From positions 186,001-250,000 of the forward strand of contig CAJTEW010000001.1 of NCBI GenBank assembly GCA_910575605.1: DNA of 64,000 nucleotides. Reading direction: 5' to 3'. A model generated the notes under the pieces. That model made no database searches, was not told where the DNA came from, and was given only the letters and a program-made list of their open reading frames with translations. A program made the position numbers and the translations under genes. This document shows positions 14,727 to 48,057 of the stretch, piece by piece. This DNA is from Lachnospiraceae bacterium. Its GTDB lineage: Bacteria > Bacillota > Clostridia > Lachnospirales > Lachnospiraceae. Within the stretch, counting starts at the first letter, position 1. Every line of letters begins with the position of its first letter.

Positions 14727-14866
14727 ATGGAGCAAGTATTAGAACTTAAGAATATCCATTACGCCTATCACAACCTCGAAGGGGAAACCCCTGCACTTAG
14801 AGGCATCTCCTTTGCCCTCGCAAAAGGAGAATTTGTCGCTATTGTAGGTCCTTCTGGGTGCGGCAA
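14727..14866 (+). pseudogene. 5' part of ABC importer ATPase gene, interrupted by E1
   Basis: Encodes the first 46 residues of a nitrate/sulfonate/thiamine-precursor-type ABC ATPase, from MEQVLELKNIHYAYHN to the P-loop GPSGCG. Frame then runs into element E1 and stops. The rest of the gene begins at 39494. Joining 14727-14866 to 39494-40121 gives one open frame of 255 residues in which the P-loop reads GPSGCGKSTLL. A ribosome binding site, CCGGAGG, precedes the start. The importer is inactive while E1 is inserted, because the Walker lysine is lost. Confidence 0.93.
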
Positions 14867-14891
14867 TGCGATGTGTCCGCAGCGGAAACAA
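14845..14891. other. Left attachment junction of E1 (attL)
   Basis: The ATPase sequence ends in CGGCAA (14861-14866), and the same hexamer is present at the right junction (39488-39493). Inside the element, 12 bases from the AA core, lies GCAGCGGAAACAA (14879-14891). It is repeated in inverted orientation as GCAGTGGAAACAA exactly 12 bases inside the right junction. Core placement at AA (14865-14866) is the only one that makes the two arms equidistant. This is the half-site arrangement expected for a large serine recombinase. Confidence 0.85.
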
Positions 14892-14898
14892 TTCTTTC

Positions 14899-14943
14899 GG
14901 CAGCCACTGATTTTGCTCCGCTTTCTTCCCATCAATGGCTGCC
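14899..14943. terminator. Hairpin over the recombinase stop codon
   Basis: GGCAGCCACTGAT and ATCAATGGCTGCC form a near-perfect 13-base stem with a 19-base loop, covering the stop codon of the E1 recombinase and lying next to the attachment arm. There is no T-run. It may limit read-through out of the element or protect the recombinase mRNA end. Confidence 0.4.
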
Positions 14944-16572
14944 ATAGATAAAAATATGGGCTTGTTCTCCATCCCAGACAACCTTGTCGAGAATCATACG
15001 CAGATACTCTCTTTTTTCAGGTACAGACAGCGTGTCAAACAGCTTGCGAAAAGAAGATAGCTGCTCCATTAAAAATTCCAGTTGTTCTTTATCTCCTTGC
15101 ACACTTCTTCCATCCTCTCCTATATCGGTCCTCTCTTTTTCCAATGCTGTACATTCCTCATTCAGCTTTAATATCTGTTTTTCTATCTGGCTGATAAATT
15201 CCTCGTTTCCCCCTGATTTTCCAAGCGCACAAATCAGATTTTGTACTTCTTTCTTACGGCTCCTGATTTCCTGATCTAAAATGTCAACGGTTGATATTTT
15301 ATCTTCTTTCGTTTCACTGACTCGCTCTATCGCTTTTTCTAACATTTTATGGATATTGGAATTTTCCTCTGAATATCGCAAAACCTCCCTACAGACCAAC
15401 TCATCCAATGTATTGCCCTGCACGTTTGACACAGAACATTTCTCGCCATGAGTCAAATCCTTATAAGGACAAAGATAAGAAAATTTCCTGTCTCCCTGTT
15501 CTGTTACTTGTTCGGAAGAATAATATTTTGGACGCATTACATGTCCGCAGGAGCAATATAAAATCCCTGATAAAAGAGAAACTTTATTCTGAGGTTTGTG
15601 CCACATATCTCCTCTGGAACGATTTCTCTCAAGAATATTTTGCACTTTTACAAATTCTTTCCCTGTTACAATCCCTTTATGTCTTCCTAACGCAATAATC
15701 CATTTTTCCGGTGAATTATCCTTTCCTTTATATTCGGTAGAAGATGTCTTCGCATAGGAAATCATACCTCTGCTCCCATCTGCTTCCTCTTCATCCATAC
15801 AAACCTGACATCCAAGGTTCCAAAAGTATGTATACGACTCCTGATCTGCCATACAATACACTGGATTCGTTAAAATATCCCGTATAGCAGTTGTTGAATA
15901 TTCTTTTCCGCGTTTTGTGCGGATATCGTGATTCAAAAAATATTTCACAATTCCGATTAACGATTGTTTTTCTAAATATTCACGAAAAATAAAACGGACA
16001 ATTTTCATCTCCTCTTCATCAACTACAAGCCGAAAACTCTTTTTATTCCTGCCATTTATAGATACCTTCTCCTCCGCTTCTGCCGTAAACCCAAGAGGTG
16101 TATTCCCTCCCAGCCATCTGCCTTTTCTGGCAAGCATGATCATATTATCCCTGACGCGCTCTGCAATCTGCTCTCGTTCCATTTGAGCCAATACTCCGGC
16201 AAAGTACAGCATTGCTTTGCCGATCGGTGTAGATGTATCAAACCGTTCCTTGATACTAATAAACAACACATTCAACTTATTTAATGTCTCTACCAGATTT
16301 GCCAAATCTGCAATATTTCTTCCTAATCTATCCAGTTTATAGCATACCAGATAATCACAATTTCCTTTTTTGATTTCTCCCATCATTTTCTGAAACTGCG
16401 GACGATTGGTATTTTTCCCGGAATAGCCTTCATCTTCGTATTCTATAATCTCTGCATTTTCTGATTCAGGGATATTGTATCTTATATAATCTTTACACAT
16501 AGAAATCTGATTTTCTACACTTTCACCTCTGCCTGTCCATTTCGATTTTCTGCTATAAATAAATATTCTCAT
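14932..16572 (-). CDS. Large serine recombinase of E1
   Basis: Site-specific integrase/excisionase of 546 residues. It has an N-terminal resolvase domain with the nucleophilic serine in IYSRKSKW, and the conserved DRLGRN and GVLAQMEREQIAERVR region. A recombinase domain follows, then a zinc ribbon (YCSCGHVMRPKYY paired with LCPYKD and EKCS, about residues 350-400) and a coiled-coil C-terminal tail. The start is placed at the second ATG (16572) because the upstream AAAGGAGA lies too close to the first. Its position immediately inside the left junction makes it the integrase of this element. Confidence 0.95.
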   Translation of the reverse strand: MRIFIYSRKSKWTGRGESVENQISMCKDYIRYNIPESENAEIIEYEDEGYSGKNTNRPQFQKMMGEIKKGNCDYLVCYKLDRLGRNIADLANLVETLNKLNVLFISIKERFDTSTPIGKAMLYFAGVLAQMEREQIAERVRDNMIMLARKGRWLGGNTPLGFTAEAEEKVSINGRNKKSFRLVVDEEEMKIVRFIFREYLEKQSLIGIVKYFLNHDIRTKRGKEYSTTAIRDILTNPVYCMADQESYTYFWNLGCQVCMDEEEADGSRGMISYAKTSSTEYKGKDNSPEKWIIALGRHKGIVTGKEFVKVQNILERNRSRGDMWHKPQNKVSLLSGILYCSCGHVMRPKYYSSEQVTEQGDRKFSYLCPYKDLTHGEKCSVSNVQGNTLDELVCREVLRYSEENSNIHKMLEKAIERVSETKEDKISTVDILDQEIRSRKKEVQNLICALGKSGGNEEFISQIEKQILKLNEECTALEKERTDIGEDGRSVQGDKEQLEFLMEQLSSFRKLFDTLSVPEKREYLRMILDKVVWDGEQAHIFIYGSH

Positions 16573-16662
16573 GTCCCGCATTCTCCTTTACAGCTTCACA
16601 GATTGAAGAAAACAGGCAAGAGTCCTCTCCTGCCTGTACAACTATATACAAATGGTCTTATA

Positions 16663-18024
16663 TTATTCGCTTTTTCTATCAAATACAATTCTCCCCATAA
16701 GATAAATTGGAATTGTAATTATTTTACCGGCACATCCCCCATAAGTATCTCCCTTCAAATAATAAACATAAGATACCTTTCCATCCTGAAGCATTTGCAT
16801 AGCCGTCTTACCCTGGTTCTTGCCAGCTTTTACCTCAATCGCATAATTCATATAATTCGTTCTGCTGTTTACAAAAAAATCCAGCTCGCCATTTTTATAA
16901 GAAGCAAACATTGGCGTATTTCCTGCTATTACCATCGCCTCCGCTTGTTTTTTCAAATACAAATACACGAAATTTTCATTCACGATTCCCTCTATATCAC
17001 TTGGAAGTGCGCCCGCTATATTTAAAAAATAGAGAGCTACGCCCACATCACAGAAATAGAAACGACAATTGGGAGTGACATTTAAAATATTGCCTTCGTT
17101 TACTTTTCCGCAATAGCCAATAATATGCGAGCGGTAAAACCATGCAATCGCATGATGAATACTCGTTTTTGTAACCCGGTTTGTATCCTCATGAAACACA
17201 ATCTTTGACAGCTCCTTAACAAGATCAGAAGAACCTTTTTTTTCCTTTAACATAAGTTGTGCAATTGCAGGCAGCAACTGTTCCAAAAGGTTCATTTGCA
17301 GGATATCATCAAAATATCGCTCCGATTCCTGCACAAAAATATGGATAATCCCTCCGATTTCTTTTTGCGCCTCCTGTATACTGCCTGTTTCAAGATACTT
17401 TTTTACAACTGCCGGATATCCTCCGATTTGACAATATATCTTATAGAAGTCTCTTAGTTCCTCATATTCTTCCGGCTTGCTTTTTCCATACAAGTCCAGC
17501 TTGTTATAAACTTCTCTCTTCCCCGCCGCTTCTAAAAATTCTTCAAAGGACAATGTATTCAACGTCAATGTGTCCAAATCTCCCGCAGGCAGAAAATACC
17601 CTTTTTCTATTACTTTTCCCAAGTAACTGCCTGTAACTATGAAATGTGCCTGAAATTCTCTTGCAAACTGTCTAATCAACGAAAAGACCTGGGATGATTC
17701 TTGTATTTCATCTATGAATATGATTGTTTCTTCAGTATCTGCAAAACTTCTGTCAAACAACTCTAACGCCTTATGGATTGGCTTTTCTACTCTTTCCTCT
17801 CCTGGTTTCCATTGTTCCGCCGCAGCAAGACAAGTCAGAAAATCTCTTCCTGTTGTCTGTGCCATATTAATATAGATGCAGTTCTTATAATTTTCCCTTG
17901 CAAACTTTGAGATAATATATGTTTTTCCTACCTGCCTTGCTCCTTCTACTTCCAAAACTTTTCCAGAATGATCTTCTTTCCAGTCTAACAGTTTTTCGTA
18001 AATATCTCTTTTTAAATCCTTCAT
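16663..18024 (-). CDS. AAA-family ATPase with DUF4143 domain
   Basis: A 453-residue ATPase of the AAA_14 type: Walker A in EGARQVGKTYIISKFA (about residue 30), Walker B in TIIFIDEIQESSQ (about 105), and a sensor-like FIVTGSYLG. The C-terminal half has the DUF4143 layout, including the conserved CDVGVALYFLN region and a nuclease-like AIEVKAGKNQGKTA. Such proteins are common in gut Firmicutes and in mobile elements. The cellular role is not established. It sits alone between the recombinase and a 336-base gap. Confidence 0.85.
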   Translation of the reverse strand: MKDLKRDIYEKLLDWKEDHSGKVLEVEGARQVGKTYIISKFARENYKNCIYINMAQTTGRDFLTCLAAAEQWKPGEERVEKPIHKALELFDRSFADTEETIIFIDEIQESSQVFSLIRQFAREFQAHFIVTGSYLGKVIEKGYFLPAGDLDTLTLNTLSFEEFLEAAGKREVYNKLDLYGKSKPEEYEELRDFYKIYCQIGGYPAVVKKYLETGSIQEAQKEIGGIIHIFVQESERYFDDILQMNLLEQLLPAIAQLMLKEKKGSSDLVKELSKIVFHEDTNRVTKTSIHHAIAWFYRSHIIGYCGKVNEGNILNVTPNCRFYFCDVGVALYFLNIAGALPSDIEGIVNENFVYLYLKKQAEAMVIAGNTPMFASYKNGELDFFVNSRTNYMNYAIEVKAGKNQGKTAMQMLQDGKVSYVYYLKGDTYGGCAGKIITIPIYLMGRIVFDRKSE

Positions 18025-19363: not shown

Positions 19364-19368
19364 CTCCC

Positions 19369-19671: not shown

Positions 19672-19756
19672 TTTCCCTGCTCTGTTTGATTATCTTCCAT
19701 ATCTTATAGTCCTCCTGCTATCTTCTCTGTATGCTTACCGGCTCTCCCACTATGGA

Positions 19757-20676: not shown

Positions 20677-21003
20677 CTATTCTTCTGTCTCTTTGATACC
20701 GAAAAGGACTCTCATATAGTCCTGCTTCTCATTTAAAATCCTGATAATAAGTATGCAGTTTCCTTCTATTCTGCAAAAGATATAATTATGCCTGCAAAAC
20801 AGACTGCGGTAATCTGTCAAAACCCCTGTTGTTTTTACAAGCTCGGTTCCCATATAGGGAAACACTGCAAGATTCCTGACTGTCTTTGTAATCTCCCTTA
20901 AAACTTTTGCGGCGGTTTCCTTACTGCCACAAGTATCCAAAATCGAATACTTTACATTCTGCAGATCCTCTTTCGCCTTTGGCGTATATTTCAGTTCCAT
21001 CAT
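20677..21003 (-). CDS. RelE/ParE-family toxin
   Basis: A 108-residue basic protein with the RelE/ParE fold marks: YTPKAKEDLQNVKYSIL at the N-terminus, the central PYMGTELVKTTG, and RSLFCRHNYIFCRI near the C-terminus. Such toxins act on ribosome-bound mRNA or on gyrase; this sequence does not settle which. It overlaps the upstream antitoxin gene by an ATGA, the usual coupling for this module. Confidence 0.88.
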   Translation of the reverse strand: MMELKYTPKAKEDLQNVKYSILDTCGSKETAAKVLREITKTVRNLAVFPYMGTELVKTTGVLTDYRSLFCRHNYIFCRIEGNCILIIRILNEKQDYMRVLFGIKETEE

Positions 21004-21272
21004 ATCCCCAATTCAGCCTCTACTTCATCTGCAGACAGAAAACCTCCCTCTCTTGCAGAGTTTTCTCCTTCTTCCAGCTTGGACATTAAAGTCAACATTG
21101 CTTTCATACGGTCGTACTCCGCCATATTTAAAATAACATATTCGCCCCGTCCATTCTTGGTTAGAAATACTGGAGAACCATCTGCAGCCTCTTTTAAAAC
21201 TTCTGTATAATTTCTTAAGTCTGAAATAGGTTTAATATTCGGCATAAACAATCGTTCCTTTCCTTTTCCCAT
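21000..21272 (-). CDS. Phd/YefM-family antitoxin
   Basis: A 90-residue protein beginning with the Phd/YefM DNA-binding part (PISDLRNYTEVLKEAADGSP, then VFLTKNGRGEYVILNMAEYD) and ending in a flexible acidic toxin-binding tail. The likely start is the ATG of MPNIKPISD at 21245 or the upstream ATG at 21272. It pairs with the overlapping RelE/ParE toxin and probably autorepresses the pair. The module may stabilise E1 in the host. Confidence 0.88.
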   Translation of the reverse strand: MGKGKERLFMPNIKPISDLRNYTEVLKEAADGSPVFLTKNGRGEYVILNMAEYDRMKAMLTLMSKLEEGENSAREGGFLSADEVEAELGI

Positions 21273-26470: not shown

Positions 26471-27502
26471 TTAAGCAATATCCTCCAATACATGTTCTGC
26501 ATTATTTATAGATTCTGTTACTAAATCTTTATTAATTTTGTTTAGCTCATCTTGATTTTTAGATTGCTCAACAAGCTTCACCTGACACATTTTGTAAAGC
26601 AGCCCAACTAATAATATTGCATTTTGTGTCGCTAGCTTTTCTTCTTTAGTAAAATCGTTCCAATTCAACTTCTGTTGATTATTCACTATCTCAGAAACTT
26701 GACAATAGTAGTCCTGATATTTTCTTTGTACCTGTTTCATAGCCCCCCTGTATCTATCTGCAATATTTTTTAGCTGTCCCAAATAAGAATCTATCTTATT
26801 CATCGTCTTTTCTGCCTTTTTCATCTCACTCCATGCTTTATCAGCTTGTGTAGACAGCTTACTTCCCGTTGCATTAAATATTGCCCCTCCAACAAGCAAT
26901 CCTACCCCTAATGTTGCCGCACCAAGCACCACACTTCCTAACTGCATCCCACCAGCAAGAAGGGCGGTACCTTTAGCTCCGCCTCCAAGTGCTGCCAAAG
27001 TCGCATTCGTAGCCGCCGCTCCGCTTAATGTTGAAATTGCTGTTCCTGTAGATGCCGTCCCCAATGCCATCACCGCTGAGGTAGTTGCACCTGACGCTGC
27101 AAATCCGCCTGCAGTACCAAGCGCAGCACCGCCCAAACCGCCTAGAAGGGCACCTGCCCCTATGGAAACCTGTTTTAAATCCTCTCCTTCATATTCAGGT
27201 ATTTCAATGCCATCCTTACTATATTTTTTAAACTGCGGTCTATTTTGTATCTTTTCAATTGTATCAGAAAATTCTTCAAAACTTTTTAATATATTAAGTT
27301 CCAATTTGCCAAGTTCATCCATTGCCTTATTTGTATTTTCACTCCGCCTCTCAAATCTTTCAATATTTTCCTGATGACGCTCTTCTGCTTCTTGCAATGT
27401 ATTCTTCGCCTCTTTTATGTTTGCTGCTCCTTCAATACCTTTTTTTACTCCAGTAATACCTGCTATTGCAGCACCTACTCCCAAAATTAATGGTAATGGC
27501 AT
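26471..27502 (-). CDS. Glycine-zipper membrane protein with coiled coils
   Basis: A 343-residue protein with three parts. An N-terminal coiled coil (about 20-90, with LQEAEERHQENIERFERRSE) leads into a glycine/alanine-rich hydrophobic centre (about 110-215). That centre contains stacked small-residue motifs such as GALLGGLGGAALGTAGG and GVGLLVGGAIF. A second coiled coil forms the C-terminal third. The centre looks like a glycine-zipper membrane insertion region, as in pore or membrane-remodelling proteins, but no named family is recognised. It follows the YkgJ-like gene by 4 bases, indicating coupled translation. Confidence 0.65.
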   Translation of the reverse strand: MPLPLILGVGAAIAGITGVKKGIEGAANIKEAKNTLQEAEERHQENIERFERRSENTNKAMDELGKLELNILKSFEEFSDTIEKIQNRPQFKKYSKDGIEIPEYEGEDLKQVSIGAGALLGGLGGAALGTAGGFAASGATTSAVMALGTASTGTAISTLSGAAATNATLAALGGGAKGTALLAGGMQLGSVVLGAATLGVGLLVGGAIFNATGSKLSTQADKAWSEMKKAEKTMNKIDSYLGQLKNIADRYRGAMKQVQRKYQDYYCQVSEIVNNQQKLNWNDFTKEEKLATQNAILLVGLLYKMCQVKLVEQSKNQDELNKINKDLVTESINNAEHVLEDIA

Positions 27503-27506
27503 AATT

Positions 27507-27758
27507 TTAACCCTCCGTATTTCTTAATTTTTTACACATTTCCTTATTTAGTCTATAATATTCGTCTCTTGATAATTGATTTTTAAAATACAATTCATAA
27601 CATTCATCTACTCTGCAAAGAATTGGTCTGTCTTTATAAATCGAACAATCATTTCCAATCAGATACTTACAAGTTCCATCCCCCCTATCCAGTTTAGCAT
27701 AAACATCAGATTTATCTAAATTCCTACAACAACAGCCACATTTCTCACATAAAAACAT
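27507..27758 (-). CDS. YkgJ-type cysteine-cluster protein
   Basis: An 83-residue protein rich in cysteine: CEKCGCCCRNLDKSD at the N-terminus, GTCKYLIGNDCSIYKDRP, and LCRVDEC. This is the zinc- or iron-chelating cysteine cluster of the YkgJ/UPF0153 group, in a shortened form. The exact activity is unknown. Its ATG overlaps the stop of the upstream 430-residue gene by one base (TAATG), so the two are translated together. Confidence 0.8.
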   Translation of the reverse strand: MFLCEKCGCCCRNLDKSDVYAKLDRGDGTCKYLIGNDCSIYKDRPILCRVDECYELYFKNQLSRDEYYRLNKEMCKKLRNTEG

Positions 27759-32212: not shown

Positions 32213-32213
32213 A

Positions 32214-34779: not shown

Positions 34780-34793
34780 AACTTATTTCCCTC

Positions 34794-35903
34794 TTATTCT
34801 GCCTTAAAATTATAAATCGGCTTTAGCTTTTTCCTTATTTCCACCGTATCTCCAATCTGCCCCTCTATCTCCTTCCTATTCCGGTACGCAAACGGGGCTT
34901 CATCTAACGTTTCCTTCCCGATACAGGAGCTGTAAATTCCTTTCATTTCCGTCTTAAACTGGGATACAGTATACCTTGTCTTTACCTCTTCCCGTTTCAT
35001 CCTTCGTCCCGATCCATGCGGCGCAGAGTAATTCCAGTCTGCATTTCCTTTCCCTACGCCGAGAAGAATCCCGTCGCGCATATTGATTGGAATGATCACA
35101 GGTTCCCCCTGCTTTGCGGAGATGGCACCTTTCCGCAAAATCATGTTATCTCCTATATCATCAATATAATTATGCGCAGACGATATCTGCTCCTGTATCT
35201 TCCATTTCATTCCTTTTGCCAGTTCGTCTAATATAGCGTGTCGGTTCAGCTTGGCAAACTCCTGCACTGCCTGGATATCCTGCAAGTACTCTTCCATCAG
35301 CACACCTTCCAGATAGGTCATTTCATACGGAACTGAAATCCCTCTTTTCTTTAATTCCCACTGTCCTTCCGTCAGATAATACTCCGTCACTTCTTTTCCC
35401 AGTCTCCGGCTTCCGGAATGTACGGTCGCATAGAGATTCCCGTCTTCGTCTTGATCCAGTTCGAGAAAATGATTCCCTCCGCCAAGTGTGCCAAGACTTA
35501 ATTCCGCCTTTTGTATATTTACATGCTCCACACAATGTAACTGCAGAAAATCAAACTCCTGACTAAACCGGTGCGGTTTTTTACGCACACCAAAACCACA
35601 GGGCACCTTCTCCCTGATAACCTTGTCAAGCTTCCCAAACTCTGTCTTTTTCTGCTTCAATTTTGCCAGCGTCACGCCGCACCCCACGTCGATTCCGACA
35701 ACATTCGGGAGCACTCTTTTGCCAACCGTAGAAGTAAAGCCAATCGTCCCCACCTTTCCCGGATGGACATCCGGCATAACTCGTATTGTACAACCCTTAA
35801 ATGTCTCATTGTTACAAAGCATCTGTATTTGGGCTAATGCGTAATCTTCGATTGTATCTGTGAATATTTTTGCTGATGTGTAGACCCCATTTACTGTCTT
35901 CAT
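34794..35903 (-). CDS. rtcB: RNA ligase RtcB2
   Basis: A 369-residue GTP-dependent RNA 3'-phosphate/5'-OH ligase. Metal and nucleotide-binding segments are intact: VVGIDVGCGVTLAKL, LGTLGGGNHFLELD, VHSGSRRLG, and SAPHGSGRRMKREE with the guanylylated histidine. It is shorter than classical RtcB (about 400 or more) as expected of the RtcB2 group. The start at the ATG of MKTVNGVYTS is chosen for its GAAAGGA site. Its pairing with prfH indicates ribosome decoding-centre repair, giving E1 a protective cargo against ribotoxins. Confidence 0.93.
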   Translation of the reverse strand: MKTVNGVYTSAKIFTDTIEDYALAQIQMLCNNETFKGCTIRVMPDVHPGKVGTIGFTSTVGKRVLPNVVGIDVGCGVTLAKLKQKKTEFGKLDKVIREKVPCGFGVRKKPHRFSQEFDFLQLHCVEHVNIQKAELSLGTLGGGNHFLELDQDEDGNLYATVHSGSRRLGKEVTEYYLTEGQWELKKRGISVPYEMTYLEGVLMEEYLQDIQAVQEFAKLNRHAILDELAKGMKWKIQEQISSAHNYIDDIGDNMILRKGAISAKQGEPVIIPINMRDGILLGVGKGNADWNYSAPHGSGRRMKREEVKTRYTVSQFKTEMKGIYSSCIGKETLDEAPFAYRNRKEIEGQIGDTVEIRKKLKPIYNFKAE

Positions 35904-36022
35904 ATAATCCTTTCTCTTCTTTTTGGTGCTTTCCTGCAAAAAAGGTACAAAAAAACACCCCTGAAACGCAGAGATGCGGAATGGTCTGAATAACTTCTAT
36001 AAATGGATATAGAAAATGCCTG

Positions 36023-38996: not shown

Positions 38997-39476
38997 TCAC
39001 AATCCAAATGTATGTTCTATTTTCTTTAACTTATGATAAGCTTCCTCTGAAATCTTCATTTTTCCAACTTCATAGCATTTATAAGATGACAGTGGTACAT
39101 TTAAAATTTCTACAAACTGTCTCTGTGTCATACCATTATTCTCTCGAATCCTCTTCAGATATTCACATACATTCGTAGTATCTACAAATCTATGATATTC
39201 ATTACAAAAATAATATTCTTCTACACCAAAATATAACGCCATTTTTTTCAACAACTGTATATTCATATGCGCCTCCGGTATCTTTGCATTCGCATAAGAA
39301 AAAATAGTATCTCTGGAACACCCTATCGCTGCTCCCAATTTAGGTTGCGACAACTTTTCTTTCTTCATAAAATATTTAATTCGTGTTGAAATACTTCTAT
39401 TTCTATATTCTTCGTCTTCGAACATACCATCGAACACTCTGCTGGATTTGGTTAATACCGCCCCATTTGTTTCCAC
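38997..39476 (-). CDS. Two-HTH XRE-type regulator at the right end of E1
   Basis: A protein of up to 159 residues with two helix-turn-helix units: KKEKLSQPKLGAAIGCSRDT (about 38-60) and NNGMTQRQFVEILNVPLSSY (about 113-135). The longest frame starts at a GTG inside the attachment arm and has no ribosome binding site; an ATG at 39425 (MFEDEEYR) would give 142 residues. In the circular element the gene lies just downstream of the recombinase, so integration separates it from that read-through. It may govern excision or entry genes. Confidence 0.75.
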   Translation of the reverse strand: METNGAVLTKSSRVFDGMFEDEEYRNRSISTRIKYFMKKEKLSQPKLGAAIGCSRDTIFSYANAKIPEAHMNIQLLKKMALYFGVEEYYFCNEYHRFVDTTNVCEYLKRIRENNGMTQRQFVEILNVPLSSYKCYEVGKMKISEEAYHKLKKIEHTFGL

Positions 39477-39515
39477 TGCTATACCATCGGCAAATCGACC
39501 CTTCTTTCCATAATC
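39465..39515. other. Right attachment junction of E1 (attR)
   Basis: Reading inward from the AA core (39492-39493), GCCGATGGTATA is followed by GCAGTGGAAACAA (39467-39479 on the minus strand). This matches the left arm at 12 of 13 bases at the same 12-base distance. Outside the core the ATPase gene resumes in frame at the lysine codon. Confidence 0.85.
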
Positions 39516-40121
39516 GCAGGACTTCTCGTTCCGGAAAAGGGACTGATTAAAATTAATGGGAAATACTTACGCGAAAGTACAACAAATGTTGGCTACATGC
39601 TCCAGCATGATGAATTATTCGAATGGAGAACCGTCTACAACAATGTAATACTCGGATTAGAGGTACAGCATATGCTTACCGCAAGAACACGTGAAAAAGC
39701 CCATGAACTTCTTGATTTCTATGGTCTTAAGCAGTTTGAGCATGCACGCCCCTCTGAACTCTCCGGAGGCATGCGCCAAAGGGCAGCCCTCATCCGCACA
39801 CTGGTCCTTGATCCGGATCTTCTGCTTCTTGATGAGCCATTTTCTGCACTTGATTACCAGACGCGCCTAAATGTAGGCGACGATATCGGGCAGATTATAC
39901 GACGGGAAAAAAAGGCGGCGCTTCTCGTTACACATGACTTGTCAGAAGCCATTTCCCTTGCCGACAGGGTCATTATTCTTTCCGGCCGGCCCGCAGAGAT
40001 AAAGCAGACCATACCTCTAATCTTTGACCTTGAAGAAGACACCCCGTTAGCCAGACGAAATGCACCTGAATTCAAAACCTATTTTAATTTAATATGGAAG
40101 GAGCTGAACATAGATGAGTGA
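39494..40121 (+). pseudogene. 3' part of ABC importer ATPase gene
   Basis: Continues the gene begun at 14727. It encodes the rest of the P-loop (KSTLLSIIAG once joined), a Q-loop in YMLQHDELFEW, the signature LSGGMRQRAALIRTL, Walker B LDPDLLLLDEPFSALD and the switch VTHDLSEAIS. All are intact, so only the insertion has inactivated it. It overlaps the permease gene by ATGAGTGA, typical of an ATPase-permease operon. Related systems import nitrate, sulfonates, taurine or thiamine precursors; no binding-protein gene is present in the window. Confidence 0.93.
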
Positions 40122-40805
40122 CCTTTCAAAGGAACAGCAGAAATATCTTCTCTGCCTGAAAAAACATAAACGAATTGTCCGTGTCTCCCGGATTCTAATT
40201 CTCCTAAGCTTCCTGTTTCTCTGGGAATTTACGGCAAATGTAGGAATCATTGATTCCTTTATCTTCAGTAGTCCGTCAAAAATTGCCTTGTGCTTCTGGG
40301 GCATGGTACTGGATAAGAGTATCTTCCTCCATATAGGAATTACTCTGTACGAAACCATTATCAGTTTCTTCCTTGTAATTGCCATCAGTGTGCTGGTGGC
40401 AGTTGCCCTGTGGTTCAGCGTCAAGCTCTCAGAAATACTGGATCCTTATCTGGTTGTATTAAACAGCCTTCCGAAATCCGCGCTTGCGCCTCTCCTTATC
40501 GTATGGCTCGGCGCCACAAAAACAACGATTATTGTGGCCGGAATGTCCGTCGCGGTGTTCGGAAGCATCTTAAGCCTTTACACCAGCTTTATTACTGTAG
40601 ACCCTGGGAAAGTAAAGCTTATTTACACCCTTCAGGGAAAAAAATACCAAGCACTTACCAAGGTAGTACTTCCAAGCTCTGTACCTGCCATTATCAGCAA
40701 TATGAAAGTTAACATAGGTCTCTGCCTCGTGGGCGTAATTATCGGGGAATTTCTCGCCGCAAGAGACGGACTTGGATATCTGATTATATATTCCAGCCAG
40801 GTATT
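40114..40805 (+). pseudogene. 5' part of ABC importer permease gene, interrupted by E2
   Basis: Encodes residues 1-230 of a BPD-type permease, including GITLYETIISFFLVIAISVL and the EAA-like loop SSVPAIISNMKVNIGLCLVG, up to YLIIYSSQV. The frame then leaves the gene at E2 and continues meaninglessly to 40929. The missing end lies at 47952-48057. Joining the two gives 265 residues with the last transmembrane helix restored. The start is coupled to the ATPase and has AAGGAG upstream. Confidence 0.92.
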
Positions 40806-40828
40806 CAGCCGTGAGGGCATTATGATAC
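40804..40828. other. Left attachment junction of E2 (attL)
   Basis: The permease phenylalanine codon is cut after TT (40804-40805). Inside the element, after CAGCCGTGAGGG, lies CATTATGATAC (40818-40828). The right junction has CATTCTGATAC in inverted orientation, also 12 bases inside its TT core. Confidence 0.85.
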
Positions 40829-40880
40829 TGTGTAATATCATATACTTAAAGATATTTATAATTCCTCATCTAACAAACAG

Positions 40881-42605
40881 TCATTCTAATATTTCCCATA
40901 CCCCTTTTCCCCCGCTTCCGCGAAACTGAATCCTCCCCTCTTTTTTCAGTGCCCTTATCCTGTAATTGACTCCCGACAGGCTGATTCCCAATTCCTCTGC
41001 AATCCTTCTGGCCGTCATCTGGGGATTCTCACGCATCATGTCAACAATTCTTTCCCGTTCTTCCTTCTTTTTCTTCCTGTAATTAAACAGCTTCCCATAT
41101 TCCGCCTTTATGCAGTTTAACTCACACACGATCTCCATATATTCAGGATAAATGAATATCTTCTCTACCTCATCCATCATTGCCATAGCAACTGCTCTTT
41201 CAAAAATATTCTTCGTCTCAAATACACGTTCAATACAAAAAAACCTCTTTTCTATTACTCCCTCCTCTTTCTTATTTCCTAACCTATCTATTTTTTTTCG
41301 TATCTCTAAAACCTCTTCTTCCAGCCCTTTTTGTTTTCTCTGATAAACTTCGTCAGAAATAACCCCCTCCAATAACTTCTCTACCAGTAGATTCATCTGA
41401 CACAGAAGCTTTTCCTCCTTCTCATGTTCCCTTAAAAGCTCTGTCTGATAGTCTGTTTCTTTCAGAACACTTTCCAGCATCTCTGTCATATCACTGATAA
41501 TCTGTTCTCTGTCTGGCTGATAGCTTTTCGCATAAATATGCTTTAACAGTCCATACAATGCCTCTTCCTCAAGATGAACATTCCCGCACGTCTCTCCCTC
41601 AAGATACCTGCTGCATTTCCATTCATAAATAGTCTCCCCATCCCTGTACCGCTTTCTTGTCCTCCTATAATAAGGGCTTTTACATAACCCACAGAAAAGT
41701 TTTCCGCTTAAATAGGATTTTCCCTTATAGCGCCCCCTTTTTTCACTTTCTGTCCTTCCTGCCTTTTCTGACCTCTTCTCAATCTCACAGTTAGCCGCCT
41801 CCCACAACTCCTCCGACACAATTGGCGGAACCTTATTTTCGTATATAAACTGCTCCTCCTTAGGAACCTTCCTTATTTTTTTCGATTCAAAATCATAGTG
41901 TAATCTATTCATTACTGCTGTTCCTTTATTAATTGGATTATGAATCATCCGTAGAATTGCAGAATCCGAAAACGGCTTCCCATTTCTTCCTACAATTCCT
42001 TCCTTTTTGAGAATAGCTGAAATTCTGCGGCTCCCAAATCCAGCGGCACACAGCTCGTACATACGTCTTTTAATTTTTGCCTCCTCTTCAACCACCTCCA
42101 CACTTTTATCCGGCAGTTTCCGATATCCGTAAGTATTTGATGTCAAAATCACGGGACCGTTATTTTTCTGTCTGTTTCGGTGGGCATTGTTTATTTTTTT
42201 ACTCAGCTCCCGGCTGTACTCCTCTGCCAGAATCGCCTTAATTCCAGTAATCAGGGCATCGTCTGTTGTATAATATTTCCGTTCAATATAGATATAAAGC
42301 TTTTTCTGCCCACGCAGCAGACGGTCTATAAAAAGATACCAGTCCTTCGTGTTCCGCATTAACCTGTCCTGAGACTTAATTACAATAATATCAAACTTAT
42401 CACTTGCCAGATCCTCATACAGACGCTTATATTCATTTCTACCCTTTGTCGTAGTCCCAGAACGGCTTTCTACATATATGTCAGTAAGCAGCCACCCATT
42501 TTCACGCACACACATCCTGCCCTCTTCCACCTGTTTTTTCAGGGCATCCTTCTGGCTTTCCTCTTCCGTACTGCAGCGGGCATAAATAACCGCACGGACA
42601 GTCAT
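40881..42605 (-). CDS. Large serine recombinase of E2 with C-terminal winged helix
   Basis: A 574-residue recombinase. The resolvase domain starts TVRAVIYARCSTEEESQKD with the nucleophile in YARCST, and keeps KSQDRLMRN and EEYSRELSKKI. A recombinase domain, a zinc ribbon (LFCGLCKSPYYRRT with KCSRYLEGETCGN) and a coiled coil follow. The last 60 residues form a separate winged helix-turn-helix (ENPQMTARRIAEELGISLSG, VNYRIRALKKEGRIQFRG), unusual for this class. It lies at the left end of E2 and overlaps its upstream 55-residue partner by ATGA. Confidence 0.93.
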   Translation of the reverse strand: MTVRAVIYARCSTEEESQKDALKKQVEEGRMCVRENGWLLTDIYVESRSGTTTKGRNEYKRLYEDLASDKFDIIVIKSQDRLMRNTKDWYLFIDRLLRGQKKLYIYIERKYYTTDDALITGIKAILAEEYSRELSKKINNAHRNRQKNNGPVILTSNTYGYRKLPDKSVEVVEEEAKIKRRMYELCAAGFGSRRISAILKKEGIVGRNGKPFSDSAILRMIHNPINKGTAVMNRLHYDFESKKIRKVPKEEQFIYENKVPPIVSEELWEAANCEIEKRSEKAGRTESEKRGRYKGKSYLSGKLFCGLCKSPYYRRTRKRYRDGETIYEWKCSRYLEGETCGNVHLEEEALYGLLKHIYAKSYQPDREQIISDMTEMLESVLKETDYQTELLREHEKEEKLLCQMNLLVEKLLEGVISDEVYQRKQKGLEEEVLEIRKKIDRLGNKKEEGVIEKRFFCIERVFETKNIFERAVAMAMMDEVEKIFIYPEYMEIVCELNCIKAEYGKLFNYRKKKKEERERIVDMMRENPQMTARRIAEELGISLSGVNYRIRALKKEGRIQFRGSGGKGVWEILE

Positions 42606-42769
42606 ACATCTTCATCCCTTCGGATAAACTGTGTAAGGCAGAATTTCTCCTCCGGGCTTACAAGACCTTCCTGTAATAAAAGCTCTGCTAATTTCATCAT
42701 AATTTTTTTGTCCCGTTTTATCATCTGCCGGCTGGCCTCTGCCAATTTAAGCTTAGATGTGTCAGGCAT
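42602..42769 (-). CDS. 55-residue helical protein coupled to the E2 recombinase
   Basis: Short frame starting MPDTSKLKLAEASRQMIKRD and ending TQFIRRDEDV. Its stop overlaps the recombinase ATG (ATGA). GGGGGAA precedes its start. It is basic and helical and has no recognised domain. Position and coupling suggest a small recombinase partner, possibly controlling direction of recombination. Confidence 0.6.
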   Translation of the reverse strand: MPDTSKLKLAEASRQMIKRDKKIMMKLAELLLQEGLVSPEEKFCLTQFIRRDEDV

Positions 42770-42857
42770 AGCTTCCCCCACAACATATATCTTAATAAAA
42801 ATATATGCACTTTAAGAAGCAGTATATGACCATATATCCCCCGCTGCTTTTGACTAT

Positions 42858-42891
42858 AAAAACGCCTCTGGCATAAACTCTGCCAAAGGCG
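42858..42891 (-). terminator. Terminator of the DUF3798 importer operon
   Basis: CGCCTCTGGCA and TGCCAAAGGCG form an 11-base stem with one mismatch and a 7-base loop. On the minus strand it is followed by TTTTTATAG. It lies 20 bases after the DUF3798 gene. Confidence 0.85.
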
Positions 42892-42911
42892 CGTCACCTA
42901 GTATTTACTTT

Positions 42912-44096
42912 CTAATAATAAATGTCCTCAAGTATCAGCATATAATAATGGTCAAGCCCTTCTCCTGCAATCTGGAAATCAGCAGCAACCGGCATGTGTT
43001 CTTTTGAAAACTTATCCAAAAATTCTTTACTTAACACATCCTTTGGCTCTAATCCTTCATCATGCATATATTTTGCCAGCTCAACCTTGAGCTCAGGAAT
43101 ATAAACAGAGGACGGCATCGCCCATCCGGAAAGACGTCCGGTCATGTCTGCCTCCTTTGCCTTTTCTGTAATCATATCATTAATCTTACTGTAATCTCCT
43201 AAATCATCTTCTGTAATCTCCAGATTAAGAACAGTCGGATATGCCTGTGTAGGTGTCGGACAGCACTGCTCTGCAACCGTAAATTTCAGTTTAAAAGCCT
43301 CATCTAAAATCACGTCATACATAGGACAGTTTGTTCCAAAGATATTCGTATCTGGTCCATACTTTTCAATCTGTCTCGGAATATCCTCTCTTAGAAACTG
43401 AAGCATAGCTGCTGTTCCATTTCCTGTCTGCGGGTCTGGTGTGGTTACTTCCACAAATTCCATGTCAAGCTCCTCACAGGTCTTCTTCATCATGTCTCTG
43501 CGCTCTGCCTTACTTGCAGCTGCCATATGTGTCGGGAAGGAATAGTGGATGAAGGTCTTTGCTCCCATTTCATGCGCTTTTGTAGGAATGGTCACGCCTC
43601 TTCTTACCCAGTCCGTAGTAATTGCAATATCCACATACTCGTTAAGAAGCTTCGGGTCATCATTACAGGTTACGATAGAAACAATGTCCGGTCTCTTTTC
43701 ACGAATTGTCTGAAATGCAGGTACAATACCTTCCATTCCATTATCAAACAAAATATACTTCATTTCCGGATCATCTGCAAGACTTGTAACTACGGAAATA
43801 CAGCCCTCCTTATTGGTTGCAAAATCCTCAGGAAGAGTTTTATGTACTACCAGATCAGGATACTTTTTAACCATCTCCTCCGCCCCGCGGAACTCATCCT
43901 CGCTGACAGTAAGAGTCGGAGTTACGATACCGATTTTGTAAGCCTCATCATTTGTCTCTTCTCCTTCCTCTTTACTATCCTCTTGTGTCTTCTGTTCGCC
44001 CGTCTCCTTCGGCTCTGCATCATTCTTTGCACATCCCGCAGCCAGTGATACTGCCATCACTGTTACAAGAAGCATACTAAATAACCTTTTTTTCAT
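42912..44096 (-). CDS. DUF3798 substrate-binding lipoprotein
   Basis: A 394-residue lipoprotein: signal peptide with lipobox SLAAGCAKN, an acidic linker, then a two-lobed periplasmic-binding-like domain. Family marks are YKIGIVTPTLTVSEDEFRGA, the ADDPEMKYILFDNGMEGIVP segment, AKTFIHYSFPTHMAAASKAE and CCPTPTQAYPTVL. The DUF3798 group resembles sugar/nucleoside-type ABC binding proteins but its ligand is unknown. It is the last gene of a four-gene operon and probably delivers substrate to the two permeases upstream. Confidence 0.88.
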   Translation of the reverse strand: MKKRLFSMLLVTVMAVSLAAGCAKNDAEPKETGEQKTQEDSKEEGEETNDEAYKIGIVTPTLTVSEDEFRGAEEMVKKYPDLVVHKTLPEDFATNKEGCISVVTSLADDPEMKYILFDNGMEGIVPAFQTIREKRPDIVSIVTCNDDPKLLNEYVDIAITTDWVRRGVTIPTKAHEMGAKTFIHYSFPTHMAAASKAERRDMMKKTCEELDMEFVEVTTPDPQTGNGTAAMLQFLREDIPRQIEKYGPDTNIFGTNCPMYDVILDEAFKLKFTVAEQCCPTPTQAYPTVLNLEITEDDLGDYSKINDMITEKAKEADMTGRLSGWAMPSSVYIPELKVELAKYMHDEGLEPKDVLSKEFLDKFSKEHMPVAADFQIAGEGLDHYYMLILEDIYY

Positions 44097-44127
44097 TCGT
44101 TTCTCCTCTCTACTTTTTGGTTATTAT

Positions 44128-45192
44128 TTATTTTAAGGTTTCCCTTAAAATCCTTTCTTTTTCCATTTTCTCCTTCCTCAGATTCATGATGATTGCAATT
44201 ACAATTACACCATAAGCCAGGAAAGAACGGAAATATTCACCCACTGAAGGGTTATTAAACAAATTTTGTCCTGCCATAGGTGATGTAATAAAAAGCGCAT
44301 GAAACAAGATCACCCCGACAAAACAATTTCTCATTCTTGCCTCCTTAATCGAAGCGCCGCCCACTAAAATAGCCGCCGCTGCAAATGTATCCAGCCCCAG
44401 ATGCCCTGTATACACATTAATTGTTCCAAAATCACCGATAAGTATAATCTGGCTCATAGCAGCAAACACTGTGGAAATAATGATACAGATACTGCGTACT
44501 CTGTTACTCTTGATTCCCAGCGTATTTGCATGACTCAAGTTACTCCCTACCGCTTTTGCCAGAACCCCTATCTTTGCTCTTTGCAGATAAAATAAGATCA
44601 GGCTGAATACAAGAATAATTAATACTGGAAACAGCGTATATGTTTTCCCTTCAAATTTGAAAGGCAGAATTTTCTCGAACACTTCACTGATATTTTTCGC
44701 GTCCAGCATACTTCTGACCCCTATTCCCCGTTCAAGAAGAATATCGGTATTTAACGGATGAATAACTGTACCGTAAGCAACCATGAAAATAAACTGGTAA
44801 ATAACAGAGCTTAACTGCCCTATCATAATGGAAACGATCATTTCGTTTCCCCGGGCTTTATTAAGAAGCAGGGCAACTAGAAAACCAAACATCACGGAAA
44901 GCATTGCGCTTACTCCTACAACAAACAACAGCGCTAAAATTCCCGTCAAATTTAAATCCAGTGCAAATACCACTGCCATCTGCGCTGAAATAGCGCCTAC
45001 AATAATGGCAAAATTAATCCCCATGCCGCATGTCACCGGCAGGATTAACGCTAATGTAAAAAGCATATTCCGTATAAATCTGGTGTACACCTCCGCCGAC
45101 AAATAATTCAGGCTCATTTCTGAATAATAAAAGGCTATGACGGTTAATAGAAAAATCGCAATCGGCACAATGTTATTTTTCACGAACTTCAT
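44128..45192 (-). CDS. ABC importer permease (RbsC-like), second subunit
   Basis: A 354-residue inner-membrane permease of the branched-chain/ribose permease class, with about 9-10 hydrophobic segments and the motif KAVGSNLSHANTLGIKSNRV and AAAILVGGASIKEARMRNC. The start is set at the ATG of MKFVKNNIVP, which has GAAAGGA; the open frame runs further upstream into the preceding gene. It overlaps the first permease gene by about 20 bases and precedes the DUF3798 gene by 31. Confidence 0.88.
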   Translation of the reverse strand: MKFVKNNIVPIAIFLLTVIAFYYSEMSLNYLSAEVYTRFIRNMLFTLALILPVTCGMGINFAIIVGAISAQMAVVFALDLNLTGILALLFVVGVSAMLSVMFGFLVALLLNKARGNEMIVSIMIGQLSSVIYQFIFMVAYGTVIHPLNTDILLERGIGVRSMLDAKNISEVFEKILPFKFEGKTYTLFPVLIILVFSLILFYLQRAKIGVLAKAVGSNLSHANTLGIKSNRVRSICIIISTVFAAMSQIILIGDFGTINVYTGHLGLDTFAAAAILVGGASIKEARMRNCFVGVILFHALFITSPMAGQNLFNNPSVGEYFRSFLAYGVIVIAIIMNLRKEKMEKERILRETLK

Positions 45193-46216
45193 GTCTTTTG
45201 TCCTTTCTTTCAAAAATAAATGCATACAAAATAATTCCACTGGTAACAATTGTACGCAAAATCTCCGCCATCTCCGGAATAAGCAGCGCATTGGCCACCG
45301 GAATAGACAAAAGATATGTAGTCTGATAAAGAAATGTTCCGGCTAACGCATTTACCACTGTTGCTTTCTTCTTTCCTGCGCCCCCTATCACAATTGCCGA
45401 AACAGCCGGAAAACTCATCATAAACGGTCCGTCATACAGATGTAGAATTCCATAGCTCTGGGAATATACCACAACTCCGAAGGCTGCAAGAACTGTTGAC
45501 ATCACAATCCCTATAGTCCTATATTTGTTAACAGAAATACCGGAAATCTGTACAAACCTTTCGTTTTCCGCAATCGCTGAAAAGACCATTCCTGTCCTTG
45601 TCTTTGAAAAAGCCCACAAAAGAATACCTGTTCCCCACAAAAACAGCAAAAGTCCTAACGGAATTACCAGCTTTCCAATCTTTATCTGCCACAAGTTATC
45701 AAGAACCTGTCCAAAATAAATATCCAGATTGACTTTCGGCCTAAGTCCCTGCCCCCCAATGGGATAAAGCATCTGTCTGTTTGTCACAGGTACAAATGTA
45801 TAAAAAATATTCATGATTGGTATAAAGGAATATCCTACAAATGTTCCCACAATTTCTTCATTCATTTTCAACTGGTTTAAAATCTTTGCATAAAAAAAGC
45901 CCAAAACTGCAGCAATGAGACTTCCTGCTGCTATAGAGCTAAAAAAGCCTGTCCATGATGTAAACCGAAGGTTTACGGCAAACACCATGCCCAAAAGACC
46001 GGCAGAAAGTCCCACTGCCATTCCAAAGTTTCTTCCAGCCCCAACATTTATCATTGGTATCAATGACAACACTATCACACCGTTCATGGCCCATTTAATC
46101 AATGCATCGTTAATGATATCTGCCAGATTCATGTCAATCATAACCGTTACTATTAAAAGGACCAGCATATAAACAGCCATAATAAGCTGCGGAGGATTTA
46201 TCTTCTTATTTTTCAT
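45173..46216 (-). CDS. ABC importer permease (RbsC-like), first subunit
   Basis: A 347-residue permease paralogous to its neighbour, with the same fold: GRNFGMAVGLSAGLLGMVFA, FSAIAENERFVQISGISVNK and SAIVIGGAGKKKATVVNALA. The two permeases probably form the heterodimeric channel of the importer. Its gene overlaps the ATPase end by 11 bases. Confidence 0.88.
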   Translation of the reverse strand: MKNKKINPPQLIMAVYMLVLLIVTVMIDMNLADIINDALIKWAMNGVIVLSLIPMINVGAGRNFGMAVGLSAGLLGMVFAVNLRFTSWTGFFSSIAAGSLIAAVLGFFYAKILNQLKMNEEIVGTFVGYSFIPIMNIFYTFVPVTNRQMLYPIGGQGLRPKVNLDIYFGQVLDNLWQIKIGKLVIPLGLLLFLWGTGILLWAFSKTRTGMVFSAIAENERFVQISGISVNKYRTIGIVMSTVLAAFGVVVYSQSYGILHLYDGPFMMSFPAVSAIVIGGAGKKKATVVNALAGTFLYQTTYLLSIPVANALLIPEMAEILRTIVTSGIILYAFIFERKDKRHEVREK

Positions 46217-47747
46217 CTGCCGTTCTCCCGTAAAGTGAAAGCATAATTTCCTCTGGCTCTATATTGCCTTCAAATATCTTAAAAACCTGTCCCTGATACA
46301 TTACAATCACTCTGTCACAGATTCTTATAAGCTCTTCAATCTCCCCTGACGTAATGACTATTGTTGTACCATTTTTTTGATTCATCTCCAGAAGCCATTT
46401 CAAAATCAATTCCTTCGAATAAATATCAATTCCTCTTGTCGGCTCTCCCACAAAAAGAAGCTTTGGGCCAAAGGTAATGGCACGGCTGATGCACACCTTC
46501 TGCTGGTTTCCTCCACTTAACTCCCTAAGCTTCTGCTCCGGGCCAGAGCAAAGAATATTTAATTCCTCAATCATTTTTTCCGAATATTCTTTTATAACCT
46601 TCTTTTGAAGAAAAGAAAGGGGCAGAAGCTTTGGCATACTCATAAACTCCGGATGCTTGTGCTCTGTTCCAAAAATAATATTTTTCCATATAGGACTCTC
46701 CAAAAATAAACTTGTACCGGAGCGGTCCTCCGACAAGTAATAAATCCCTTGCTTAATCAGTTCCGGATTATCTCCCTTCTTCAGCTCCTCTCCACAGAAT
46801 CTCACCTGATAATCTCCCGCCTTTAGTCCGAAAAGCCCCTCAGAAAACTGCTCCTGGCCCTGTCCTGCAAGGCCGGTAATTCCCACAACCTCTCCTTCGT
46901 AGATATTCAGTCTCCTGTCTGTCCCGTTCGTCCTGTCATAGCTTAATAGTACTTCCCTGCTTAAAGCTTTCTTTTTTCGCTCTGCCTTCACAATCTCACG
47001 TCCAACCATATCATCAGCAAAACGGCTGACAGAAAACTCTGATTTTTCATATGTAGAAACCAGTTCTCCGTCCCGGAGTACTGCCACCACATCACATATC
47101 TCCATAACCTCCTCCAGCCTGTGTGAAATGAAAATAACAGCAATTCCTCTTGCCGCAATCTCACGGATACACTCAAGAAGACGTTTTGTCTCTGTGATAT
47201 TTAAGGAGCTGGTCGGTTCATCTAAAATCAGCAGACGGATACTCTCATTATCCAATTCTCTTGCCAGCTCTACAAACTGCTTCTGATTCAAAGTAAGTCC
47301 GTCTATCATTCTGTCCAGTGCAATCTGCGCTCCGATCATCTCTAATACTTTCTCTGCCTCTGCTTTATCCTTTTTATAGTCTACATAGGAAAATTCCGGA
47401 AGGAAAGTACCTTTCCCTTTTATATTTTCTCTGTTTATCTTTATGTTACGGGTTACGCTTAAGCCTGAAAACAGTGCGAGCTCCTGATGCACCATAGCAA
47501 TCCCATGAGCTGTAGACTGACTGTGGTTTTTTATAGAGACTGACGTTCCGTCAATCAAAATGTCTCCCTCGTATCCCCCCGTCTCTGCAATCAGAGCTTT
47601 TCCGTTCAGTATATTCATAAAGGTGCTCTTTCCCGAACCATTAGCACCAATTACTCCATACACTTCTCCATCCTTTATCTTCAGATTAATGTTCTTTAGT
47701 ACATAATTTCCATCAAACTGCTTTGACAGGTTTCTTACCTCCAGCAT
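46206..47747 (-). CDS. ABC importer ATPase with two nucleotide-binding domains (RbsA/MglA-like)
   Basis: A 513-residue cytoplasmic ATPase. The first domain has Walker A GVIGANGSGKSTFMNIL, Walker B LLILDEPTSSLN and ISHRLEEV. The second has the degenerate P-loop typical of this class (GITGLAGQGQEQFSEGL), signature ELSGGNQQKVCISRA and FVGEPTRGID. This layout is that of sugar/nucleoside importers. It is the first gene of the operon; its promoter lies within the 200 bases between 47748 and the E2 right junction. Confidence 0.92.
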   Translation of the reverse strand: MLEVRNLSKQFDGNYVLKNINLKIKDGEVYGVIGANGSGKSTFMNILNGKALIAETGGYEGDILIDGTSVSIKNHSQSTAHGIAMVHQELALFSGLSVTRNIKINRENIKGKGTFLPEFSYVDYKKDKAEAEKVLEMIGAQIALDRMIDGLTLNQKQFVELARELDNESIRLLILDEPTSSLNITETKRLLECIREIAARGIAVIFISHRLEEVMEICDVVAVLRDGELVSTYEKSEFSVSRFADDMVGREIVKAERKKKALSREVLLSYDRTNGTDRRLNIYEGEVVGITGLAGQGQEQFSEGLFGLKAGDYQVRFCGEELKKGDNPELIKQGIYYLSEDRSGTSLFLESPIWKNIIFGTEHKHPEFMSMPKLLPLSFLQKKVIKEYSEKMIEELNILCSGPEQKLRELSGGNQQKVCISRAITFGPKLLFVGEPTRGIDIYSKELILKWLLEMNQKNGTTIVITSGEIEELIRICDRVIVMYQGQVFKIFEGNIEPEEIMLSLYGRTADEK

Positions 47748-47926
47748 AATATCCCCCGATTACTCCAGTATATGTTCCGAATCGAACCTTTCCGATAAAA
47801 TCATCTGATTTTCACCAAATATTTATTATTATATCATGATGGCATTACAGCACACAAATTCATATTTTTTATAAATATAATTATTTATTTAATGTATCTA
47901 TAATTTATCTGCCAAAATATCATATT

Positions 47927-47951
47927 GTATCAGAATGTCTCTCCGCCTCTT
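47927..47951. other. Right attachment junction of E2 (attR)
   Basis: Reading inward from TT (47950-47951), GAGGCGGAGAGA is followed by CATTCTGATAC on the minus strand (47927-47937), the inverted mate of the left arm (10 of 11 bases). Outside the core, permease coding resumes in frame with T AAA ATG. Confidence 0.85.
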
Positions 47952-48057
47952 TAAAATGGATTGGCTCCTTATGAGTATCGTCCTCCTGTGCATAATGGCC
48001 ACGCTTCTCTACTCCCTTATTAACCTTTTAGAAAAATGGTGTCTGCGCCGTTTTTAG
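47952..48057 (+). pseudogene. 3' end of ABC importer permease gene
   Basis: Encodes the final transmembrane helix and tail of the permease begun at 40114: KMDWLLMSIVLLCIMATLLY then SLINLLEKWCLRRF and a stop. Related permeases have exactly this kind of ending after the SSQVF segment. It is read as an ATG-started 40-codon frame from 47935, but the first five codons belong to E2. Confidence 0.9.

Follow-up and report, generated by a model that had tools for sequence, protein, structure and literature searches.

Two independent mobile elements, E1 and E2, interrupt adjacent genes of one ATP-binding cassette (ABC) importer operon in a 64,000-nucleotide stretch of a Lachnospiraceae bacterium (assembly GCA_910575605.1, contig CAJTEW010000001.1, positions 186001–250000, or G000:C1:186001-250000 in our genome set; hereafter the window), which lies within a 3.8-Mb draft genome. 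The most convincing reading, which we hold with high though not complete confidence, is that both are serine-integrase elements, that each belongs to a clade with one fixed attachment site (attB) inside a coding sequence, and that the two clades repeatedly break the same importer. Site-specific integration with turnover of the elements fits the data better than a reversible switch or a favoured loss of the importer, both of which had been raised in an initial annotation made from the sequence of the window.

Two precise insertions in adjacent importer genes

Compared with the nearest relative (G005), host sequence is matched at 14002–14866, 39488–40805 and 47950–49445 of the window, with no bases lost at the joins. 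The pieces of the operon, the two elements and their integrases, together with the divergent gene that serves as a control below, are as follows.

14727–14866, plus strand: 5' part of the ATPase gene, codons 1–46 and two bases of codon 47, ending within the Walker A motif between GPSGCG and K; its last six bases are common to the right copy, and it matches the whole ATPases of five same-genus genomes to this base
14861–14866, plus strand: left copy (attL) of the E1 shared core CGGCAA, defined by where the host matches on either side overlap on the empty site
14867–39487, no strand: element E1, 24.6 kb, not at this site in any of the five same-genus genomes; 27 open reading frames (ORFs) scanned with Pfam
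14932–16581, minus strand: E1 large serine recombinase, 549 amino acids; PF00239 (Resolvase), PF07508 (Recombinase), PF13408 (zinc-ribbon)
39488–39493, plus strand: right copy (attR) of the E1 shared core CGGCAA, from the same host-match overlap; the junction CCAT followed by CGGCAAATC is likewise found in 6/6 E1-site survey loci
39488–40121, plus strand: 3' part of the ATPase gene, codons 46–255; 210 codons with two amino acid differences from G005, stop-free
40114–40805, plus strand: 5' part of the permease gene, codons 1–230 and two bases of codon 231; PF00528, two amino acid differences from G005 over 230 codons
40806–47949, no strand: element E2, 7.1 kb, not at this site in any of the five same-genus genomes
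40881–42605, minus strand: E2 large serine recombinase, 574 amino acids; PF00239, PF07508, PF13408
47950–48057, plus strand: 3' part of the permease gene, codon 231 to stop; 34 codons compared, no amino acid difference from G005
13983–14591, minus strand: queH, divergent neighbour and control gene; PF02677

The initial annotation had placed the splits at 14866/39494 and 40805/47952, and these are exact to the base, its right edges marking where host sequence resumes past the shared cores. As it had also proposed, each element has its own large serine recombinase, E1 cuts the ATPase inside the P-loop (Walker A), and the joined frames are of family length, their 768 and 798 nucleotides equalling the whole genes of G005 (255 and 265 amino acids). 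It had further called for an uninterrupted operon in relatives; both sites are uninterrupted, with the genes whole and adjacent, in all five same-genus genomes (G001–G005), where the ATPase frame spans 255–280 codons and the permease frame 265. Close relatives thus carry the intact version, and the joined frames align with it across the junctions. The 5' and 3' ATPase pieces differ from G005 at 3/45 and 2/210 residues, respectively. The frame of the left permease piece runs on into E2 to give 271 amino acids (40114–40929), the last 34 residues of the permease being exchanged for 40 encoded by the element. The E2 shared core is a bare TT (40804–40805, identical to 47950–47951); according to PMC5704250, the Tn4451 serine integrase recombines at identical sequences of 2 bp.

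Both elements have the features of large-serine-recombinase elements, namely a single three-domain integrase just inside the left end, a short identical core, an empty site in relatives and a target shared by the clade. Aligned over 193 residues, the integrases of E1 and E2 are 22% identical (E 0.001), which suggests members of one broad family that stand far apart, and neither has a match to DUF4368. Each integrase presumably catalysed its own insertion, and the interrupted importer would be inactive.

Integrase relatives at the same two sites

We sought relatives of both integrases in 397 Lachnospiraceae genomes (E <= 1e-100 for E1 and E <= 1e-80 for E2, own copies left out). All nine E1-type relatives with at least 44% identity adjoin an ATPase 5' piece broken at the identical Walker A position (9/25 overall). 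Among the remaining 16, 15 have no importer piece in about 1.5 kb of retrieved flank; the other, a distant integrase 36% identical to that of E1, cuts the same ATPase at codon ~198 in G349 (L255:8876-12195), a third attachment site in the operon. For E2, 19 of 25 relatives lie at permease codon ~231, including every readable relative with at least 43% identity (19/19), four lie elsewhere, and two, on contigs of 3–4 kb, are unreadable. The four off-site relatives are 37–40% identical to the E2 integrase, and their genomes carry a whole permease on another contig. In G109 both an E1-type and an E2-type element are found on one contig, and the operon is doubly broken. The hotspot that had been offered as one explanation is thus strongly supported and is wider than was claimed, extending over many species, with two exact sites and two integrase clades that are only distantly related.

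We propose that E1-type elements have as their attB the codons for Walker A in a single Lachnospiraceae ABC ATPase, and E2-type elements codon ~231 of the partner permease. Since both sites lie in adjacent genes of one widespread two-gene operon (the permease is present in 207/397 Lachnospiraceae genomes at E <= 1e-45), elements of either clade would disrupt this importer again and again, at times in both genes. Elements would enter and break the importer; the genes would still be undecayed when the element disappears, whether through excision, through repair or with the loss of the lineage. Interrupted lineages are probably short-lived because the operon would be useful in the long term.

In IMG/VR, 12 relatives were found, seven for the E1 integrase (25–41% identity) and five for the E2 integrase (35–44%), with no importer piece in their flanks at the filter used. 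A phage origin of E1 and E2 is therefore unsupported, the viral relatives all being distant and their flanks without the importer.

Operons surveyed without regard to breakage

The survey used permease residues 1–230 alone as query against 84,980 species genomes, and the best 80 of 230 loci, the nearest orthologues, were retained; these include the five same-genus relatives and exclude the window's own genome. Whole operons make up 59/80, and 19/80 are broken at one or both sites. The permease site is occupied in 16/80 loci, with the cut at codon 230–241 and the junctions on the same base, directly after CAGGTNTT in 15 loci and after CAAGTATT in L211. The ATPase site is occupied in 6/78 loci, cut at codon 45/46, the two other loci running off the contig inside the ATPase. 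Three loci are doubly broken (L182, L189 and L212), which together with G000 and G109 brings the doubly broken genomes to five; in L182 the cut in the permease is shown by an E2-type integrase and a displaced 3' end. Cultured isolates are among the occupied loci, Schaedlerella arabinosiphila DSM 106076 at the E1 site (L217) and Faecalicatena orotica NLAE-zl-C242 at the E2 site (L199). An E2-type integrase stands in the flank of 12/16 E2-site loci. The controls remain intact by comparison: queH is whole in 61/61 survey loci where it is in view, and argH on the same contigs, in view 54 times, is whole in 52, at a contig edge in one and apparently frameshifted in one, with no insertion seen.

Several observations weigh against the proposal that each site belongs to one integrase clade. 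Four E2-site loci (L201, L212, L247 and L249) have no E2-type integrase in the fetched flank, and an E1-type integrase is in the flank of only 1/6 E1-site loci, although the genomes of L189 and L198 (G267 and G371, respectively) do contain one at another place; it is seldom in the flank because it is located at the far end of E1-type elements. Among the 19 E2-type relatives at the permease site, one (G123) has a weak match to the 3' piece, one (G325) survives as a remnant next to an intact permease, and one (G199) is rearranged.

Three loci deserve separate mention. In L256 (G128) the contig runs out at the E1 junction (ATPase codon 46), as would happen if an occupied site had interrupted the assembly. 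In G199 (L080:10251-12369) the permease pieces are in opposite orientations near an E2-type integrase, and in G177 (L158:5088-6737) a whole permease is inverted relative to the ATPase; either could reflect a recombination-driven inversion or an assembly error.

Apparently recent, repeated insertions and the possibility of favoured loss

On a quick tree of 81 permeases, with two contig-edge rows left out of the E1-site count, the 17 E2-site rows require 15 changes and the seven E1-site rows six; most occupied sites therefore look like separate events. Occupancy is scattered, and whole sister operons adjoin most broken ones. L182 and L188 provide an example of movement: two interior stretches of their elements, of 3.9 and 1.4 kb, are 98.4% and 97.1% identical, respectively, whereas their importer genes are 81% identical. 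The element, far more alike than the genes that it interrupts, thus has a much younger common origin than its hosts, which points to horizontal movement into the same site. The last 467 bp of this element, 90% identical between the two loci, are less alike than the interior; this right end holds a helix-turn-helix (HTH) gene, and it has perhaps been exchanged or is evolving apart from the cargo.

The broken genes are not decaying as a group. Median dN/dS (the ratio of nonsynonymous to synonymous substitution rates) to the nearest whole relative is 0.040 for 20 interrupted rows and 0.067 for 53 whole rows, with 8/81 rows excluded for lack of a usable neighbour, a comparison that has little power against very recent insertions; restricted to dS < 1.2, the values are 0.035 (9 interrupted) and 0.060 (36 whole; p = 0.14). 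No in-frame stop occurs in the N-terminal part of the permease in 80/80 loci, a search that itself favoured good matches. In G325 (L156:3129-3926, 10365-10472) a decayed E2-type integrase comes after a whole permease, together with a second, displaced copy of the permease 3' end (95% identity over 126 bp), an arrangement that suggests an in-place repair of the interruption. We had considered whether E2-type elements restore the permease 3' end as a rule, and rejected this, as the element-encoded tails differ and several stop at once; G325 is the single exception. Taken as sequence comparisons, these data make the insertions look recent and repeated.

This dating has its own counterevidence. 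Of the 78 inner branches of the tree 25 are open, and the starred branches by themselves require no more than three changes in each group (E2-only, E1-only, both). L188 and L189 have importers 98% and elements 95% identical, so as near kin they may share one inherited insertion. Finally, three interrupted rows have high dN/dS (L217 0.18, L247 0.12 and L249 0.18).

The same data bear on the suggestion that gut conditions select against the importer, for instance because it takes up a harmful compound, and that selection, and not the specificity of the integrases, accounts for the enrichment of insertions here. It would account for the number of interrupted operons, 19/80 with three of them interrupted twice, and for the co-occurrence of both insertions in the survey, which lies slightly above expectation (3 vs 1.2) and is not significant (Fisher p = 0.097). 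G059 (L154:2787-6660) also speaks for loss: its permease is additionally cut at codon ~147 by a 3.9-kb insertion-sequence (IS)-like insert with an 11-bp direct repeat and inverted ends that are similar by eye, and its 3' end lies ~66 kb further on, adjoining an E2-type integrase. Hit by both an IS-like insert and an E2-type break, this permease indicates that importer loss is tolerated there. However, selection for loss would be expected to leave frameshifts, stops and deletions elsewhere in the genes, whereas the survey breaks fall at two exact sites and the N-terminal parts of the permeases are free of in-frame stops. Whole operons stand beside most broken ones on the tree, selection is not relaxed in the broken genes as a group, and the permease of G325 has apparently been rebuilt. 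We therefore regard favoured loss as unlikely, and the initial annotation's suggestion of it is unsupported.

A possible reversible switch or shared gate

Phage insertion in comK of Listeria acts as a switch, and E1 and E2 might similarly be kept as on/off devices, regulated excision rebuilding the ATPase and permease genes as skin excision rebuilds sigK. The insertions are precise and both genes could be rebuilt without loss, and the pieces in the window are under strong purifying selection relative to G005. A candidate regulator of excision lies beside attR:

38997–39476, minus strand: E1 HTH protein, right end of the element; PF01381

Homologues with 52–55% identity are found at the same element end in four other E1-site loci (L182, L188, L189 and L198), where they could regulate excision; none was found in L212, L217, L072 (G109), L074, L256 or L025. 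Precise rebuilding is no evidence for a switch, however, because it is generic to serine integrases. Both genes would have to be rebuilt by two independent excisions at once, and the window's own assembly has a single permease match, the broken one. The E1 circle junction was not found in that assembly, in a search made for E1 and not for E2. G118 has both a whole and an E2-type-interrupted copy, yet these are only 86–89% identical and are therefore not two states of one locus. Moreover, a domesticated switch should be conserved by descent at its site, and we found many changes on the tree, scattered occupancy, cargo and integrases that vary among hosts, and empty sites in all five same-genus genomes. 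Of the earlier proposal that excision would rebuild each gene and so act as a switch, the first part would hold for both genes; the second lacks positive evidence, the elements in our sample not being conserved by descent. A switch of this kind is accordingly very improbable.

A related possibility treats the importer as a shared gate, on which two integrase lineages converged because breaking and rebuilding it is useful to the element or the host. Elements would close the gate on arrival and reopen it on leaving, and hosts in renewed need of it would repair it, as G325 suggests. We consider this doubtful, and prefer integrase site choice with turnover of the elements.

Cargo of the two elements

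The elements carry dissimilar genes. Those assigned in E1, besides its integrase and HTH gene, and those in E2 are listed below.

16663–18024, minus strand: E1 AAA_14/DUF4143 ATPase; PADLOC candidate PDC-S01
20677–21272, minus strand: E1 toxin-antitoxin-type pair, ParE-like (20677–21003; PF05016) and Phd/YefM-like (21000–21272; PF02604)
26471–29050, minus strand: E1 candidate defence genes, PDC-M09A-like (343 amino acids), an ORF of 83 amino acids and BnzB-like (430 amino acids); PADLOC, BnzB E 2.2e-131, PDC-M09A E 3.1e-28
30758–31578, minus strand: E1 mobilization-type genes, short relaxase (186 amino acids; PF03432) and NikA-like (93 amino acids; PF21983)
34147–35939, minus strand: E1 PrfH (release factor H) and RtcB; TIGR03072 above cut-off, PF01139
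42912–47747, minus strand: E2 second ABC importer, comprising a DUF3798 protein (PF12683), two BPD_transp_2 permeases (PF02653 twice) and an RbsA-type double ATPase (PF00005 in two stretches)

Conjugation-channel families had no match among the 27 E1 ORFs scanned with Pfam, and E1 had no megablast match to plasmid and phage records. The BnzB-like and PDC-M09A-like genes form a candidate Bunzi-like defence operon, adjoining a WYL-domain gene (29102–30046), and the adjacent prfH and rtcB genes ride in E1 as mobile cargo. The genome has 20 matches to the large-serine-recombinase family PF07508. No mobilization or relaxase gene was found among the five main E2 ORFs scanned with Pfam (the integrase and the four ABC importer genes).

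The presence of a second importer in E2 raises the possibility that the element replaces the importer that it breaks with the DUF3798/RbsA-type importer that it carries. Its DUF3798 protein has one distant homologue (40%) in the five same-genus genomes, found in 1/5, and the E2-type element of G388 carries phosphotransferase system (PTS) sugar-uptake genes. Against this, in a sample of 19 proteins from 10 E2-type elements (a twentieth scanned protein turned out to be encoded outside its element), the cargo of the nine others consists of an AAA-ATPase with an AraC regulator, a GHKL kinase with a HipA-like protein, AAA_21 with DUF3226, two hybrid histidine kinases, a GDSL lipase, a chemoreceptor, a D-glutamate cyclase, an FtsX-type ABC transporter with a kinase, and DUF6033. 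As this cargo is mostly unrelated to import, the importer of E2 is probably carried as cargo and does not explain the choice of site, and replacement is an extremely remote prospect.

Candidate substrates of the interrupted importer

The nearest named families of the ATPase are of the sulfonate/taurine/nitrate type. A search for a substrate riboswitch in the window and three relatives matched only transfer RNAs at the gathering score. No gene for a substrate-binding protein lies beside the ATPase-permease pair in the window (13983–14866 and 39488–48793), where the neighbours are QueH and a TrkA-type protein; the wider neighbour scan covered ten proteins, and queH is upstream of the pair in the window and in six relatives with a scanned neighbour. 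NMT1-family binding proteins occur in 6/6 genomes of the genus, though they are not assignable to this importer. Either the gene for the binding protein lies elsewhere, or the pair functions without such a protein.

Comparison with known systems

A target gene common to many divergent large serine recombinases is a published pattern, exemplified in Durrant et al. 2022 (PMC10083194) by a magnesium chelatase/protease gene and a prolyl isomerase site. The systems described there resemble E1 and E2 in that divergent integrases without a DUF4368 match use one conserved coding site; here, in contrast, two distantly related clades use two sites in adjacent importer genes, and doubly occupied operons are found repeatedly. 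The main text of that paper contains none of the terms 'ABC transporter', 'ATP-binding' or 'ATPase'. We found no paper, in a search confined to main texts and for the most part to freely available papers, that names such a double target, be it in this importer or in neighbouring genes of any single operon.

Integrative and mobilizable elements (IMEs) with serine recombinases are also described as disrupting dispensable genes in a review that covers those in rumA of streptococci (PMC5704250), and IME_Rho_tet of gut bacteria is described as lying often within MAFF2 ORFs (PMC12904643); further serine-recombinase elements of gut clostridia at other sites appear in PMC3158075 and PMC12904643. As far as these accounts go, the IMEs of Firmicutes are like E1 and E2 in their site-specific insertion within genes and their very short repeats, and like E1 in its mobilization-type genes. 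They differ in their target, and E2 differs further in that its five scanned ORFs include no mobilization gene. The skin element in sigK and the phage switches of active lysogeny, as described in PMC4430133 and PMC8987985, likewise have a recombinase-bearing element that interrupts a gene which precise excision would rebuild; those are regulated devices, whereas here occupancy is scattered and cargo varied.

Our survey, with 19/80 close importer orthologues broken, implies that integrase site choice alone can drive the recurrent loss of a metabolic function, and that where a gut genome has an apparently broken copy of this importer, the cause may be a recent event involving a mobile element and not decay. 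The two sites, with their many natural integrases and matched empty sites, form a ready set for studying the specificity of serine integrases and the convergence of their lineages on one operon. Set beside the systems above, the paired sites in a single operon are an unusual feature of an otherwise known pattern.

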